A stretch of DNA of 64,000 nt. Origin: Cyanobacteria bacterium RI_101 (GTDB lineage Bacteria; Cyanobacteriota; Cyanobacteriia; Cyanobacteriales; Microcystaceae). Positions 35,808 through 48,531 of the stretch are shown here, in pieces (within the stretch, counting starts at the first letter, position 1; each line of letters opens with the position of its first letter). Made by a program: the position numbers and the translations under genes. The stretch spans positions 1-64,000 of the forward strand of contig WGLZ01000049.1 of assembly GCA_016471375.1 (NCBI GenBank), given 5' to 3'. The notes under the pieces are model-generated. The model did no database searches and had not been told where the DNA came from. It was given only the letters and a program-made list of their open reading frames with translations.

Positions 35808-38634
35808 GTGCCGAAACCTTGGATGCCGTAAGGCGTTGAGCGCCTGAGCTAGGATGGATACGATTTGACTGGCGTATGTGCCGAAACCTTGGATGCCGTA
35901 AGGCGTTGAGCGCTCAAGTATAGAGCTTTTTCAAGGGTATATGATGGGGTTGTGCCGAAACCTTGGATGCCGTAAGGCGTTGAGCGCAAAATAATGGCCA
36001 AGCCCTTCCTTAAGAACTCCGGTGCCGAAACCTTGGATGCCGTAAGGCGTTGAGCGCGATTGGGGTTAATGGCCCTAGGCTTACTTTTTAGGGTGCCGAA
36101 ACCTTGGATGCCGTAAGGCGTTGAGCGCACTACCGGGCGGCGGAGGCGATAGCGGCCCAAATTGTGCCGAAACCTTGGATGCCGTAAGGCGTTGAGCGCA
36201 GTTGAGTCAGCAGGTAACGGATCTTTCTCCTTTAGTGCCGAAACCTTGGATGCCGTAAGGCGTTGAGCGCTAGCTTTTCCGGGTCACCCGTCCGAGTTTG
36301 GGGTGTGCCGAAACCTTGGATGCCGTAAGGCGTTGAGCGCGTATTTTTGAGTAAGTCCGAGTCTGAAAAAGGTAAGTGCCGAAACCTTGGATGCCGTAAG
36401 GCGTTGAGCGCGACGTAAACGGCTCACCCTGGGGAGACCCCTTAAGTGCCGAAACCTTGGATGCCGTAAGGCGTTGAGCGCACATAAGCCCGGAAGGTTG
36501 GCACATCGGCAGTAAGTGCCGAAACCTTGGATGCCGTAAGGCGTTGAGCGCAAACCGGGGTCCGGCTCCTGCTCGATGATCTCGTCCAAGTGCCGAAACC
36601 TTGGATGCCGTAAGGCGTTGAGCGCGAGCACACATGGGACTATAGGCAGTTACACATCTTGTGCCGAAACCTTGGATGCCGTAAGGCGTTGAGCGCGGCT
36701 ACTACGGGGGCGATGAGCGCCATTGTTTAAGCGGTGCCGAAACCTTGGATGCCGTAAGGCGTTGAGCGCATTTGTCCGGGCTAAAAGGTTTACCGGGGGT
36801 CAGCAGTGCCGAAACCTTGGATGCCGTAAGGCGTTGAGCGCGAGTTATTCACAGTGTTCGCTTTGAAGGCACTGACCAGTGCCGAAACCTTGGATGCCGT
36901 AAGGCGTTGAGCGCTAATAGCGGATTACCCCATAGATTAGAGACTTATGGTGCCGAAACCTTGGATGCCGTAAGGCGTTGAGCGCAGTATATCCGAGGGA
37001 CAGGGATCGCCCTGTTCACCGGGTGCCGAAACCTTGGATGCCGTAAGGCGTTGAGCGCATTCCCGTCAGTGACGCGTGTTAATCGGTGAACCCCGTGCCG
37101 AAACCTTGGATGCCGTAAGGCGTTGAGCGCGAGCCGTGCGAGAGAGGACAAAATACTCTCCAAACAGTGCCGAAACCTTGGATGCCGTAAGGCGTTGAGC
37201 GCAAGTCCATTTTAGAGGGCTTGCTAGGGAGCGTCGCGTGCCGAAACCTTGGATGCCGTAAGGCGTTGAGCGCAGTTCTCCCGCGCCCATTCTACATTTT
37301 TACAATGGTGCCGAAACCTTGGATGCCGTAAGGCGTTGAGCGCTAAGTAGCGGGGATACCGATAGCCTGTTGACAGTCGTGCCGAAACCTTGGATGCCGT
37401 AAGGCGTTGAGCGCGCGTAGTTATCAGTATCCAGAGCCAGCGCAATCACTTCGTGCCGAAACCTTGGATGCCGTAAGGCGTTGAGCGCCTCAGGCTGGGG
37501 GTCGGAAAACGACTCGCCGGAGAGTGCCGAAACCTTGGATGCCGTAAGGCGTTGAGCGCAAGGTCAACTCTATGCCTGAATTGCTTCTCTGGTTTGTGCC
37601 GAAACCTTGGATGCCGTAAGGCGTTGAGCGCCCCCCATCGCTGTACAGGAAAGCCTCAAAAAAATCGTGCCGAAACCTTGGATGCCGTAAGGCGTTGAGC
37701 GCTCATACTGCCAGCAGGCAAGACAATTACTCCTTCGTGCCGAAACCTTGGATGCCGTAAGGCGTTGAGCGCGAGATGGGGAGCAATTTCGCCCCGGTTC
37801 TCATACCGTGCCGAAACCTTGGATGCCGTAAGGCGTTGAGCGCAGGGGTTTCTCGAATTGACCGCTAATATCGCTAGAATGTGCCGAAACCTTTGATGCC
37901 GTAAGGCGTTGAGCGCGGCGGTATTCCGGCGCTGAGTGATTGCCTATACGGTGCCGAAACCTTTGATGCCGTAAGGCGTTGAGCGCCTCCCATCTTAGCC
38001 TAAAATCTAGGATATTAGACAGGTGCCGAAACCTTTGATGCCGTAAGGCGTTGAGCGCCGCTCCGGGACGTTGATGGCCGAGGACGTGCTACCGGTGCCG
38101 AAACCTTTGATGCCGTAAGGCGTTGAGCGCAAACAAGGGATAGACTTCAAAATAGCCTAAATGGTGCCGAAACCTTTGATGCCGTAAGGCGTTGAGCGCA
38201 AATCTTGCATAGGGATAAAGAGGGGCCTAAAGCCCCCCGTGCCGAAACCTTTGATGCCGTAAGGCGTTGAGCGCATGGTAATCAAGAGGTCAAGAGAGAC
38301 CTAAACCCACTAGTGCCGAAACCTTTGATGCCGTAAGGCGTTGAGCGCACGTTGGCATGGGCGGATTCCGCCGGAAGTTCGCTATCGTGCCGAAACCTTT
38401 GATGCCGTAAGGCGTTGAGCGCGCGGTTTCGTGTTCGACGGTGGCTAAAATGTAGGCGTGCCGAAACCTTTGATGCCGTAAGGCGTTGAGCGCGGATGAG
38501 TAGGGCGGTGAGGAGGGATACCGTTGAGGGTGCCGAAACCTTTGATTCCGTAAGGCGTTGAGCGCACCGGGGAACAATTAGGCTACAGTTCAGCGTAAAG
38601 GGTGCCGAAACCTTTGATGCCGTAAGGCGTTGAG

Positions 38635-38717
38635 GAAAAACAGGTATCAGTTAGCAGTTATCAGTCATCAAGTATTTCACTGGTCACTGTTTACTGTTCG
38701 CTGATAACTGTCAAACG
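38635..38717 (+). repeat. Dispersed ~85-bp repeat, copy 1 (inside the array)
   Basis: Starts right after a truncated CRISPR repeat with GAAAAACAGGTATCAGTTAG and ends GATAACTGTCAAACG. The CAGTTATCAG and CTGATAACTG words form inverted pairs. Copies: 39185-39266, 39300-39374, an interrupted one at 41110-41294, and a partial reverse one at about 58105-58143. Confidence 0.8.
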
Positions 38718-39184
38718 GCGCCGAAACCTTTGATGCCAAAAGGCGTTGCTCACGGGTTCTTTGCTTTTATCTTTCTATTGGCGCTGATCTGTGCCGAAAC
38801 CTTTGATGCCACAAGGCGTTGTTCACGCTCTAACTCGCTGGATCGGCGTGATACTGGGCGGGTGCCGAAACCTTTGATGCCGTAAGGCGTTGAGCACGGC
38901 GTTGAGGTGGACGATTGGGGCCGGCCGGTGGCTTATTGTGCCGAAACCTTTGATGCCACAAGGCGTTGTTCGCTGTGTATAAAGGAATGTTGCGGTATGT
39001 CTAAAATGAAGTGCCGAAACCTTTGATGCCGTAAGGCGTTGAGCGCATTTGGGGCGATCACAGTCAATTCACGATCCGCGAGCGCCGAAACCTTTGATGC
39101 CAAAAGGCGTTGAGCGCGACAAGCTCGGCTCCACCACCGCCGTCAAACTTTGTGCCGAAACCTTTGATGCCAAAAGGCGTTGAG

Positions 39185-45081: not shown

Positions 45082-45723
45082 ATGACCTCCTACGCCTCCG
45101 CCACCGCTCGGGCCGAAATGACCGAACTCCGGCGCCTAAAAAGTCTTTTACCCCCGGAATTGCAGAGTTGGGTGATGGTGGAAGGCTCCACCGAAGTTAA
45201 CCCGCCTCTGATCCGTTCGGAAGAGTTGGGCCGAGACGAGGTGGAGATTCAAATTGATTTACCCAAGTGGGAAAATTTAGCGATTGACCAGCGCAATCTC
45301 CTCTTTTGGCACGAAGTCGCCCGGATCCAGAACGACACCATCCCTCGGGAAGGCTGGGAAATGGCGGCCTTGGCTATCGGTTTGGGCGGCGCCGTGGGGG
45401 AGCTTTGGGTGCAAGACGGCCTGCTCTTGCTTTTGGCGTTGGGACTTTGTAGTATTTCAGGGTATCGTCTCTGGCAAAAAAATAACGGCGACAAAAAACT
45501 CAAGGAGGCCGTGGCGGCGGACGAGAAAGCCATCGCGTTAGCCACCCGCTTTGGCTACACTTTGCCCAACGCCTACAAAAGTCTGGGAAGCGCCTTCAAA
45601 TCCTTGATTGAGCAGACCCCCAACCGGCGCCAACGGAAACACTACGAAGCCCGTCTTCAAGCTCTCCGTCAGAGCGCCGCTAAAATGAAAGCCAAAACCC
45701 AGTCGCCGAAACCCGTCCGTTAA
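45082..45723 (+). CDS. DUF3318 protein, cyanobacterial
   Basis: A 213-residue protein with MTELRRLKSLLPPELQSWVM and FWHEVARIQNDT, both typical of DUF3318; two adjacent hydrophobic segments (about 92-130) form a membrane hairpin, followed by a basic, helical C-terminus. It is 18 bases upstream of the STAS-sugar transferase gene and probably co-transcribed with it. The FWHEVARIQ pattern resembles a defunct zinc-peptidase HExxR. Role unknown. Confidence 0.75.
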   Translation: MTSYASATARAEMTELRRLKSLLPPELQSWVMVEGSTEVNPPLIRSEELGRDEVEIQIDLPKWENLAIDQRNLLFWHEVARIQNDTIPREGWEMAALAIGLGGAVGELWVQDGLLLLLALGLCSISGYRLWQKNNGDKKLKEAVAADEKAIALATRFGYTLPNAYKSLGSAFKSLIEQTPNRRQRKHYEARLQALRQSAAKMKAKTQSPKPVR

Positions 45724-45741: not shown

Positions 45742-46728
45742 ATGCTGACGGAATTTTCTGTGCCTGAATTTCCCCTGCATCTCGTGAACCATAATCCTGT
45801 CTTAAGGCTCCCCTCCCGTTTGACGGTGTTGGAGGCGGTGACTTTTAAGAAAATTACTTGGGAACTGATTGAACGCTCCCCCCGCTTCCAGTTTCTGACC
45901 TTGGATTTAAGCCAGACAGAGTTTATCGATAGCAGCGGCATCGGCGCTTTAGTTCACCTCCTCAAACTCTGTCGTCAGGAGAAAATTAAACTGATCCTTT
46001 CCCAGGTTCAGCCTTCGGTTTTGGGAGCTTTAAAAATGACCAGCCTCGACCAAATTTTTACCTTTGAGGCCGGATTAGCTCCTCTCCCCGGCGCCCGTCA
46101 GCCCCAGGCGCCGGCCACCCATCCCTCCGTCCGCTCTCCCCTGAAACGGGCTATGGATATCGCCGGCGCCCTGGTGGGTTTAAGCGTTACGGGCGTTTTG
46201 TTCATTCCCATCGCCCTCGCCATTAAACTAGACAGCCCCGGCCCGATTTTCTTTAGCCAAACCCGTTGCGGTTGGATGGGGCGCCGGTTTCGCATGTATA
46301 AATTCCGCTCCATGTGCGCCGACGCCGAGCAACGCAAGGGAGAAGTGGAGAACGAGATCCAAGGGCCTTTTTTCAAAAGCGGGAAAGACCACCGCGTTAC
46401 CCGAGTGGGGCGCTTTCTGCGGAAAACCAGCCTCGATGAACTGCCCCAATTTTGGAACGTGCTCTGGGGCGACATGAGCCTGGTCGGCACCCGACCCCCC
46501 ACCCCCGACGAAGTGGAAAAATACGAAGTCCCCTCCTGGCGACGCTTAGACGTGAAACCGGGGATGACGGGAGAATGGCAGGTGAGCGGGCGCTCGATGC
46601 TGAAGGACTTCCAAGACGTGATTCGCCTAGATTTAGAATATCAGCAGAAATGGAGTCATCGCTACGATTTGCAACTGATGTTAAAAACTCTTGTTTTAGT
46701 CTTTCGACAAGGTAGCGGAGCGATGTAG
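45742..46728 (+). CDS. STAS domain-sugar transferase fusion
   Basis: A 328-residue fusion. Residues about 18-110 form a STAS domain of the anti-sigma-factor-antagonist type, with the phosphorylatable serine in IDSSGIGALVHLL. Residues 130-328 are a WcaJ/PglC-like bacterial sugar transferase: a membrane segment (ALVGLSVTGVLFIPIALAIK), DSPGPIFFSQTRCG, FRSM, the KTSLDELPQFWNVL motif and PGMTGEWQVSGRS. The enzyme would load the first sugar phosphate on undecaprenyl phosphate for exopolysaccharide. An RsbW-like kinase follows 15 bases later. Confidence 0.9.
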   Translation: MLTEFSVPEFPLHLVNHNPVLRLPSRLTVLEAVTFKKITWELIERSPRFQFLTLDLSQTEFIDSSGIGALVHLLKLCRQEKIKLILSQVQPSVLGALKMTSLDQIFTFEAGLAPLPGARQPQAPATHPSVRSPLKRAMDIAGALVGLSVTGVLFIPIALAIKLDSPGPIFFSQTRCGWMGRRFRMYKFRSMCADAEQRKGEVENEIQGPFFKSGKDHRVTRVGRFLRKTSLDELPQFWNVLWGDMSLVGTRPPTPDEVEKYEVPSWRRLDVKPGMTGEWQVSGRSMLKDFQDVIRLDLEYQQKWSHRYDLQLMLKTLVLVFRQGSGAM

Positions 46729-46743
46729 GGAGCCGTAGCGCAA

Positions 46744-47235
46744 ATGTCGGACACTTTTGCGAATGTTTCCCTTCCTCCCGGGGTCGAAGAATTGACCCTC
46801 ACCGTTCCCACCCGCCTACCGGAACTGACTCAAATCTTGGATTGGTTGGCCCTCCAAATCGCGCCCTGTCTTAGCCCAGAACATTTTTGGCAGGTGCAAC
46901 TGATTATTGTTGAAGGCTTTACCAACGCTATAAAGTACGCTCACTCTTGTCTGCCCCCCTCCACCCCGGTGCGCATCGCGCTTTTACCCCTGCCGGATTA
47001 CCTCGAAATCCAAATTTGGGACTTTGGCCCTCCCTTTGACCTTCAGGCGCGGCTAGAGTATTTATTAACTCATCCTGACCCCTATAGCGAGGGCAAGCAG
47101 GGCCTAATCCTCATCAGTAAAGCTTCGGATTACCTCGACTATAGACGGGTAAACAGTCGGCAAAACTGTCTGGTGGCGCGGAAGGCGGCGCTCTGGCGTC
47201 CCGTCCCCCCGGCAGGCGACAAAATTTCACGTTAA
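46744..47235 (+). CDS. RsbW-like anti-sigma factor/serine kinase
   Basis: A 163-residue GHKL ATPase-fold protein: the N box is IVEGFTNAIKYAHS and the G1 box QIWDFGPPFDL, then SEGKQGLILISKASDYLDY. Proteins of this class phosphorylate the serine of a STAS partner. The only STAS domain nearby is fused to the sugar transferase encoded immediately upstream, making it the obvious substrate. No sigma factor is encoded in the window. Confidence 0.88.
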   Translation: MSDTFANVSLPPGVEELTLTVPTRLPELTQILDWLALQIAPCLSPEHFWQVQLIIVEGFTNAIKYAHSCLPPSTPVRIALLPLPDYLEIQIWDFGPPFDLQARLEYLLTHPDPYSEGKQGLILISKASDYLDYRRVNSRQNCLVARKAALWRPVPPAGDKISR

Positions 47236-47289
47236 GCTAGGGAACTAACGCCAACGTTAACCCTTGCTTTCCCTGACTTGGGTGGTTCT

Positions 47290-48531
47290 ATGGGTGATCT
47301 CCTGCCCCTCCTCCGCCAACCCCAGGATATCCTTCGGGAACTTCAAATCCTGGGAGAACGCTTACCCGCCGAATTTTGGCCGGGAACGGCCGCCGCCGTG
47401 GCCGCGGTTCTGGATGTTCTCCGAGCGACGCAAACTCGACAAGACCCCCTTTTATTCGAGGAGAAGGGTTTGGCGGCGCTCAAAATTAGCGGCGCCGATT
47501 TAGACGCGGCCTATCAACAAATTACCCAGGAAGATTTCAGCGTTTTAGAAGCGGGGATTACCCGCCTGGAAGCCCTGTACCGTCCCCAACTGCCCCGGGC
47601 CCAGGTCGCCTTTGGCGAGGGGGAGCAGGCGCTGGCCCGCCGGTTTTATCCCTATCGTCGGATTGGCATTTACCTTTGCGAGCAGGGGCCTTGTTTAGGC
47701 AATCTCCTGCGTCAGGCGGTGGCGGCCCGAGTGGCGGGCGTCCGGGAACGGGTTTTAGTTCTCGATTACGGCGAGAAAATTCCCCCCCAGATTTTAGTTG
47801 CGGCCCAGTTGACGGGTATTGAGGAAATTTATCGTCTGAGCGGCGCCCGGGCTATAGCCGCCCTGGCCTACGGCGCGCCCCCCCTAGCGCCGGTGGAGTG
47901 TATTACCGGTGTCGGCCCCCCGGAAGCGATGTTGGCGAAACAACTGCTGAGTCCTTGGGTGAGAACCGATTCGCCCCAAGCCCGTCTCCGCAGTGTGGCG
48001 GTGGTGGATAACGTCGAGGCCTGCGAAAGTTTAGCCCTCGATCTACTCACCCAAGCCCATTACCATCCCCAGGGTTCCCAGGCGGCGCTGACCGCCGATC
48101 CCGCCGTCGCCCAGGCGCTTCAGGATTGGCTCCGGCGTCATCACTCCCGCTTCGACTGGGGAGTCTGGACAGAAAAGGCGTTGGCCCACTACGGGACGCT
48201 GGTCTTGGTAGAGTCCCTAAAAGAGGCCCCGTCTTGGATTAACGCCCTCGATCCCGATGTTTTAACCCTAGCGGTGGCCCAACCCTGGGATTGGGTGGAA
48301 AAAATCCGACGGGCCCAAACCATTCTCATCTCCCCCCAAACCCCTAGGGCGGCGCTGGATTATGGCGGCGCGTCCCCTTTCCTCCTCGCGCCCCTGGGAT
48401 TCGATGCCCTGGTCAGTCGTTTTGACCTTTCCCTGTACCTCAAGTCGGCCCAAATTATTGATTACGGCAACCACAATTCCGCCAGCTTAACGGCGCTCCG
48501 GGCCCATGACCGCCCCTTCTGGCAGGCTTAA
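47290..48531 (+). CDS. Histidinol-dehydrogenase-like protein lacking catalytic residues
   Basis: A 413-residue protein with HisD-like order: YPYRRIGIYL, VAARVAGVRERVLV, EIYRLSGARAIAALAYG, VECITGVGPPEAMLAKQL, LALDLLTQAHYHPQGSQAAL and LVESLKEAPSWINALDPDVL. In HisD the last block reads APEHLE with the catalytic Glu-His; here it is DPDV. The zinc histidine of SQAEH is replaced by tyrosine, and the NHVLPT histidine by phenylalanine (SPFLLAP). It keeps Gln of LLTQA and Asp of LDY. It is therefore probably not a working HisD. ATG at 47290 preferred over a TTG at 47278. Confidence 0.75.
   Translation: MGDLLPLLRQPQDILRELQILGERLPAEFWPGTAAAVAAVLDVLRATQTRQDPLLFEEKGLAALKISGADLDAAYQQITQEDFSVLEAGITRLEALYRPQLPRAQVAFGEGEQALARRFYPYRRIGIYLCEQGPCLGNLLRQAVAARVAGVRERVLVLDYGEKIPPQILVAAQLTGIEEIYRLSGARAIAALAYGAPPLAPVECITGVGPPEAMLAKQLLSPWVRTDSPQARLRSVAVVDNVEACESLALDLLTQAHYHPQGSQAALTADPAVAQALQDWLRRHHSRFDWGVWTEKALAHYGTLVLVESLKEAPSWINALDPDVLTLAVAQPWDWVEKIRRAQTILISPQTPRAALDYGGASPFLLAPLGFDALVSRFDLSLYLKSAQIIDYGNHNSASLTALRAHDRPFWQA

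Follow-up and report, generated by a model that had tools for sequence, protein, structure and literature searches.

A STAS–sugar transferase fusion beside an RsbW-type kinase gene, a candidate partner-switching module for cyanobacterial polysaccharide synthesis

We analysed a 64,000-nucleotide stretch of DNA from Cyanobacteria bacterium RI_101 (hereafter the window: positions 1 to 64,000 of contig WGLZ01000049.1, forward strand), which lies on a 98-kb contig (C53) of a 3.75-Mb genome in 102 contigs. The window holds a gene for a STAS domain joined to a phosphoglycosyl transferase (PGT), followed 15 bases later on the same plus strand by a gene for a GHKL serine kinase (Table 1). The initial annotation, made without database searches, had read the first gene as a STAS domain (residues 18–110, with a DSSGIG motif) fused to a PglC/WcaJ-like transferase, and the second as an anti-sigma-type kinase. 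Pfam bears out both readings, placing the STAS domain within one residue of those limits at either end and finding HATPase_c_2 in the second product. On balance, the locus is probably a partner-switching module that has a polysaccharide-initiating enzyme as its output.

Table 1 Features of the fusion and kinase genes and of the gene directly upstream (window coordinates; ORF, open reading frame; aa, amino acids).
Feature	Coordinates	Strand	Basis or remark
STAS–PGT fusion gene, 328 aa	45742..46728	+	ORF; Pfam STAS and Bac_transf
STAS domain, residues 19–109	45796..46068	+	PF01740, E 1.3e-15
DSSGIG motif, residues 63–68; Ser64 (codon 45931–45933) presumed phosphoacceptor	45928..45945	+	Aligns with SpoIIAA FMDSSGLG
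Hydrophobic PGT helix, model residues 133–164, presumed membrane-associated	46138..46233	+	Model secondary structure; PglC match
PGT (Bac_transf) domain, residues 135–321	46144..46704	+	PF02397, E 6.1e-65
Asp232-Glu233, Asp-Glu dyad of PGTs	46435..46440	+	Each 99% conserved in 119 fusions
RsbW/SpoIIAB-type GHKL serine kinase gene, 163 aa	46744..47235	+	PF13581 HATPase_c_2, E 1.1e-15
N-box EGFTNA: Glu57 presumed catalytic, Asn61 presumed Mg-binding	46912..46929	+	Analogy with Slr1861 E43, N50
G2/ATP-lid region EGKQGL	47089..47106	+	Gly120 is the sole invariant Gly of this stretch in the family
DUF3318 gene, directly upstream of the fusion	45082..45723	+	PF11780, E 1.4e-48

The catalytic domain of the transferase is complete by Pfam, the alignment covering positions 1–178 of the 179 in profile PF02397. 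We take the catalytic role of its Asp-Glu dyad from the PglC literature, and the hydrophobic helix is presumably re-entrant, as in PglC. A search of PDB sequences with the STAS domain returned the anti-sigma antagonists TM1442 and SpoIIAA as the best solved relatives and aligned Ser64 with the DSSG serine of SpoIIAA. A SulP-type transporter domain was considered and rejected, since the best matches are antagonists and the partner domain is Bac_transf. We modelled the fusion with AlphaFold2 from an alignment (A3) of 65 of 80 candidate rows, in which the window protein is 45–60% identical to the other 64; the model has a mean predicted local distance difference test (pLDDT) score of 78.9 and a predicted template modelling (pTM) score of 0.58, with pLDDT below 50 in the linker (residues 111–123). 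Foldseek matched it to PglC (7e-14), WbaP (3.3e-11) and TM1442, and to SpoIIAA and RsbV chains from complexes with the kinases SpoIIAB and RsbW (1tid, 1th8, 6m36). The PGT shares with PglC and WbaP the catalytic fold, the Asp-Glu pair and the KFRSM and PGxTGxW motifs. In large PGTs the N-terminal part is transmembrane and Rossmann-like; in the window fusion STAS takes its place. We conclude from these comparisons that the transferase is of the PglC/WcaJ type, with predicted sugar-1-phosphate transfer, and that the STAS domain, with its DSxG serine present, is of the RsbV/SpoIIAA type, the kind regulated by kinases.

The neighbouring kinase has the HATPase_c_2 fold, the N-box glutamate and asparagine and the G1 box. 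A profile built from 13 such kinases found RsbW (6m36) at 1.8e-11, and the fold model of the window protein (pLDDT 86.6, pTM 0.80) matches SpoIIAB and RsbW of kinase complexes. Among 30 aligned kinases the invariant columns include E57, T60, N61, A66, H67, G95 and G120, with E57 and N61 kept in all 30; the lid of the window kinase has Gly117 and Gly120 and no GxG. By sequence and model the protein is thus a kinase of the RsbW/SpoIIAB type, with predicted phosphorylation activity. In a published model of the cyanobacterial pair Ssr1600/Slr1861, the first serine of the STAS motif (S59) is hydrogen-bonded to kinase residue E43, and the complex is predicted to weaken once S59 is phosphorylated (PMC12329169). 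Judging from the N-box, Slr1861 E43 would correspond to Glu57 of the window kinase.

We next consider how widely the fusion occurs. With the STAS part as query, 169 of the 291 genomes of the class gave matches at E ≤ 1e-8; this is not a count of fusions because some matches sit in frames of 118–150 aa, that is, in free STAS proteins. The fusion is present at each of the 30 loci retrieved for the top-scoring matches, one of them the window's own. For comparison of gene neighbourhoods we used 80 named loci with 81 fusions, the best 80 of 260 confirmed relatives; the frequencies given for them therefore do not represent cyanobacteria fairly. All of these loci bear cyanobacterial record titles, including Microcystis, Oscillatoria, Nostoc, Calothrix, Microcoleus, Leptolyngbya and Crocosphaera, among others. 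The 130 loci fetched in all (L001–L130) contain 126 fusion ORFs, 120 of them distinct; adding later loci from the window's own genome and removing identical rows, rows of less than 250 aa from the STAS start and extra copies of the window fusion gave a tree set of 119 distinct fusions. The STAS–PGT fusion is a widespread cyanobacterial family.

The STAS serine is conserved in relatives, as the initial annotation required: Ser64 is present in 118 of the 119 distinct fusions (one Gly), next to an Asp63 found in all of them. Ser65 is kept in 114 (four Cys, one Thr) and Gly66 in 113 (six Ala); the drift, to DSCG, DSTG or DSSA, thus affects the residues that follow the first serine and spares that serine itself. 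Throughout the family the PGT motifs remain intact (Asp and Glu each at 0.99, KFRSM, PGxTGxW). Six fetched loci encode a longer chain, and in the five scanned (all but L112) Pfam found an Alg14-like domain, STAS and Bac_transf. Those five (L111, L113, L114, L115 and L116) are 666–743 aa long, with GT28_C in front in four. Long ORFs of about 670–775 aa had been considered as transporters, a reading rejected on the domain content of the five. Alg14 and GT28 proteins of known systems add the second sugar; if they do so here, STAS would be grouped with the enzymes that carry out the first and second steps.

The kinase gene recurs behind the fusion. It lies within 1 kb downstream on the same strand of 28 of the 81 fusions in the named loci, 76 of which have at least 1.5 kb of downstream sequence, and none was found upstream of or on the opposite strand to a fusion in these loci. 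Across the tree set it follows 47 of the 119 distinct fusions on the same strand; 94 could be judged, the other 25 being followed by less than 1.5 kb (some of these have an identical copy in a longer locus). Of the 47 pairs, 29 are spaced within −40 to +25 bases and 17 overlap. On the fusion tree (FastTree; 37 of 116 inner branches weakly supported), the linked state changes 7 times over the 94 judged rows compared with 31.7 times with shuffled labels, a contrast inflated by near copies. The gene pair suggested by the initial annotation is therefore real and recurrent, but strict pairing is not borne out, since 53 of the 81 fusions have no adjacent kinase. One locus (L060:6935-8125) has two consecutive HATPase_c_2 kinase genes after a single fusion, and a DUF3318 neighbour as in the window. 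A DUF3318 homologue occurs at 51 of the 80 named loci, 15 of them with and 36 without a linked kinase, and a family-4 glycosyltransferase (GT4; by Pfam scan of one member) at 25, indicating that much of the sample is one conserved locus from which the kinase is sometimes absent.

The kinase also appears to track one half of the fusion more closely than the other. In a mirror-tree comparison of 45 pairs (two of the 47 were dropped because their kinase ORF, shorter than 130 aa, is cut by the locus end), kinase distances correlated at 0.82 with those of the STAS part and at 0.77 with those of the PGT. The partial correlation was 0.54 for STAS given PGT against 0.34 for PGT given STAS, and in 91% of 300 column bootstraps, run with equal numbers of columns, the STAS value exceeded the other. 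These values are suggestive of closer co-evolution of the kinase with STAS than with the PGT.

Fuller sets of switch components were found beside the kinase-linked fusions of the named loci. Using profiles built from these same loci, we detected a SpoIIE-type PP2C phosphatase gene with 11 of the 28 and a free STAS gene with 10 of the 28, whereas both counts were zero for the 53 fusions without a linked kinase (at least 3 kb was read downstream of 45 of these). Four of the PP2Cs and two of the free proteins were scanned with Pfam, which found SpoIIE together with PAS/GAF or receiver domains in the former and STAS in the latter. Six loci titled Laspinema or Oscillatoria (L034–L037, L085 and L100) share the order fusion, kinase, PP2C and convergent free STAS; the PP2Cs of L034 and L085 have PAS domains, and that of L034 also a weak GAF match. 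The order in four Nostocales loci (L075, L082, L098 and L101) is fusion, kinase, free STAS and convergent PP2C. The PP2Cs of L098 and L101 carry a receiver domain, with a hybrid histidine kinase beyond in L101, and in both loci the module ends a polysaccharide cluster with pyruvyl transferase, GT4, flippase, family-2 glycosyltransferase (GT2), Alg14-like and GT28-like genes.

No sigma factor genes were found in these surroundings. The initial annotation had noticed none nearby, and the eight Sigma70_r2 matches of the genome indeed all lie away from contig C53. Searched with two profiles made from the genome's own sigma genes, the 80 named loci (921 kb) yielded no sigma factor ORF; the four ORFs recovered as controls were the profiles' own seeds, so the search is shown to run, its reach less fully. 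On these grounds we rejected an anti-sigma operon as an account of the locus. The partner switch proposed in the initial annotation gains from the kinase-regulated type of the STAS domain, from the kinase N-box and from the PP2C and free STAS genes of relatives, and loses from the breadth of the kinase family, which extends beyond the fusion. That annotation also had the enzyme switched without transcription, which may or may not hold; the control published for the relative XssP is transcriptional.

A search of plasmids with the full-length fusion linked the family to a studied protein. It returned a protein encoded on pSYSM of Synechocystis PCC 6803 (47.7% identity over 94%); the STAS part alone gave no match at 1e-8. 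The pSYSM protein is annotated 'sugar transferase' and contains STAS (1.7e-9) and Bac_transf (5.2e-67) with the motif DSAAIV. Its gene adjoins genes for a NACHT-type NTPase and two response regulators, fitting the description of xssQ-xssR-xssS, and we identify it as XssP by this position and the published cluster description rather than by a shared locus tag. XssP is described as the priming glycosyltransferase of the polysaccharide synechan, disruption of which abolishes bloom formation and suppresses exopolysaccharide (EPS) (PMC8205485), and a 2026 paper has it catalyse the initial glycosyl transfer (PMC13125312). The main text of both papers, as searched, lacks the term 'STAS'. XssP has the same STAS and Bac_transf domains as the window fusion and differs from it in its motif and in having no linked kinase in the stretch read. 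A nearby gene annotated 'ATP-binding protein' was examined as an RsbW kinase and rejected, as it encodes an AAA protein. XssP-like fusions (61–64% identity) are present in four of the five genomes of the window's genus that we searched, with no kinase of the window-kinase family in the stretches read. One of them is a second fusion in the window's own genome, on contig C23 (L154:4118-5519, minus strand; STAS 8.2e-7, Bac_transf 3.5e-66), which has the motif DSSGV, is 61% identical to XssP and is followed 136 bases downstream by a free STAS gene; no kinase of that family was found in its stretch either.

Another member is known here by description. A review reports that all4160 of Anabaena encodes a glycosyltransferase with an N-terminal STAS domain (PMC8256260), and the gene is named elsewhere among those needed for heterocyst envelope polysaccharide (PMC4390870). 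All4160 (Anabaena PCC 7120) resembles the window fusion in this architecture; unlike in the window, no kinase is named for it in the passages that concern it. Two family members are thus needed for polysaccharide according to the passages cited: XssP, the sequence of which we tested, and All4160, on the word of the review. The fusion of STAS to a glycosyltransferase is therefore already published for one protein, all4160, and the component parts are of known kinds; among the open-access matches listed, we found no paper on control of a STAS–PGT fusion by a kinase or phosphatase.

The closest regulatory parallels are RsbU/RsbV/RsbW and SpoIIE/SpoIIAA/SpoIIAB, with which the locus shares a DSSG-type STAS domain, a GHKL kinase and matching predicted folds and, in some relatives only, a PP2C phosphatase with sensor domains at the same locus. 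Unlike those systems, it has no sigma factor found nearby, and its STAS domain belongs to the same polypeptide as a metabolic membrane enzyme. Partner switches over polysaccharide or biofilm are described for Vibrio fischeri (SypA/SypE) and Nostoc punctiforme (HmpU/V/W); in the passages concerned their output is a STAS protein with no target reported, and for SypA and HmpV the unphosphorylated form is reported or suggested to be the active one. SypA and HmpV are free STAS proteins, whereas the window STAS domain is fused to its candidate target enzyme.

These parallels suggest how such a module might work. The C-terminal PGT would move a sugar-1-phosphate to a membrane lipid carrier, committing carbon to polysaccharide, and the N-terminal STAS domain would be the switch. 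The RsbW-type kinase would bind unphosphorylated STAS, ATP-dependent phosphorylation of Ser64 would end the complex, and a PP2C phosphatase would reset the switch; either the kinase complex or the phosphorylation would hold the PGT in an altered state, of activity or of assembly. Our guess, by analogy with SypA and HmpV, is that the unphosphorylated form is 'on', although the sign of control could run either way. Where a clade also has a free STAS protein, this would be the RsbV-like competitor for the kinase, and the fused STAS would occupy the position of the sigma factor. In the window's own genome, the phosphatase and the free STAS protein would need to work in trans; the four strong PP2C matches are located on contigs C78, C64, C22 and C69, with a fifth, weak SpoIIE match, and none is on C53. 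The arrangement also suggests that the targets of SypA- and HmpV-like STAS outputs could be initiating transferases. We advance more tentatively the combined proposition that the committed step of EPS synthesis is partner-switched inside the initiating transferase, in XssP and All4160 as well, and that HmpV and SypA target initiating sugar transferases.

Several observations weigh against a partner-switching module at this locus. The serine is kept even in the 53 fusions without a linked kinase, for 45 of which the downstream sequence read spans 3 kb or more. The kinase family is broad, with profile matches in 235 of the 291 genomes at 1e-12; some of these genomes lack a match to the STAS part, and the family is therefore not exclusive to the fusion. 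In the mirror-tree comparison the difference is modest, and faster evolution of STAS may account for it. In XssP the motif is DSAA, no kinase of the window-kinase family lies within the 24.9 kb read near xssP, and the control published for xssP is transcriptional, through XssS/R/Q (PMC8205485). Four Okeania fusions (L065, L072, L080 and L096), all without a linked kinase, have DSCG, and one fusion (L114) has DGSG in place of DSSG. Contig C53 has neither a SpoIIE match nor a second STAS match, so the window locus by itself is not a complete partner-switching system. The relative placement of STAS and PGT in the model is unsure (pTM 0.58), the fold matches being at the level of domains, and the window fusion sits on a long branch (0.64) of the tree. 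Kinase activity is likewise unsure, because 14 of 45 kinases have a G2 lid ending in WG and the other 31, with RGL, QGL or KGL, do not generally show GxG either; the WG kinases are possibly binding-only. They are those of L005, L008, L010, L018, L023, L069, L075, L082, L098, L101, L117, L119, L120 and L122, and 13 of the 14 have a PP2C or free STAS gene in the same locus.

The fused STAS could instead be a structural or docking substitute for the Rossmann-like domain of large PGTs, serving dimerisation, membrane positioning or partner recruitment, with the serine kept for the fold and phosphorylation unimportant. Consistent with this, TIGR03025 aligns with fusion residues 59–323 (profile positions 181–441), reaching the region of the domain that usually precedes the PGT; most fusions (53 of 81) lack a linked kinase; XssP functions with DSAA and no linked kinase of the family; and STAS lies between Alg14-like and PGT domains in five fetched chains. 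We nevertheless consider it unlikely, as it leaves unexplained both the sets of linked kinase, PP2C and free STAS genes and the retention of the first serine, in 118 of 119 fusions and in the DSAA of XssP, while the residues after it drift.

A membrane-bound fused STAS might alternatively titrate the kinase away from a real target elsewhere, a sigma factor or another STAS protein, so that polysaccharide synthesis would signal to gene expression. For the related cyanobacterial kinase Slr1861, action on several STAS proteins and control of SigC through partner switching have been reported, and the genes ssr1600 and slr1861 lie at separate places in that genome (PMC12329169). The window's own genome, with eight sigma region-2 and nine STAS matches, would offer such targets. 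Such titration is nonetheless quite improbable in our view: no sigma match is on C53 and no sigma ORF was found in the loci of the 80 relatives, and the kinase, where present in the named loci, stands specifically behind the fusion. Chance adjacency of two unrelated genes, for which it speaks that the pair occurs in the window's own genome only among the four genomes of its genus compared, has a negligible probability and was rejected, as it is contradicted by recurrence across the fusion tree (47 of 94 judged rows, 17 of 47 pairs overlapping), by the few changes on that tree, by the small number of strong HATPase_c_2 matches in the genome (13 in all, 5 above the family cut-off and 3 at 58 bits including the window kinase), and by those four genomes themselves, of which G000 has both genes and G065, G218 and G252 neither (they have XssP-like fusions only and no kinase at 1e-12).

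Around the module, the DUF3318 gene probably shares a transcription unit with the fusion, and Pfam found a MinC_C protein among the other neighbours. Downstream, the ORF at 47278–48531 encodes a divergent HisD relative by its profile scores (histidinol dehydrogenase in Pfam, 2.4e-52; NCBIfam hisD, 164 bits against a cut-off of 244). The genome has three Bac_transf genes. Elsewhere in the window, positions 36506–38900 hold an array resembling clustered regularly interspaced short palindromic repeats (CRISPR), with more than 30 copies of the 36-base repeat GTGCCGAAACCTT(G/T)GATGCCGTAAGGCGTTGAGCGC at a spacing of mostly 69–75 bases; near 37.9 kb the repeat changes to a variant in which TTGG becomes TTTG. 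Because the scan covered positions from 36500 onwards, the true start of the array may lie before that point.

Partner switching is best known for the release of sigma factors. A regulatory domain built into the initiating enzyme, with kinase and phosphatase genes beside some of the fusions, suggests that cells could turn slime polysaccharide production on and off by acting on that enzyme itself, and it names a candidate kind of target for STAS outputs such as HmpV and SypA. The question is directly testable in Synechocystis PCC 6803 because of the strong published phenotype of XssP, loss of bloom formation and suppression of EPS. If the module works in this way, it would offer a handle on cyanobacterial blooms and on the production of sulfated polysaccharide.

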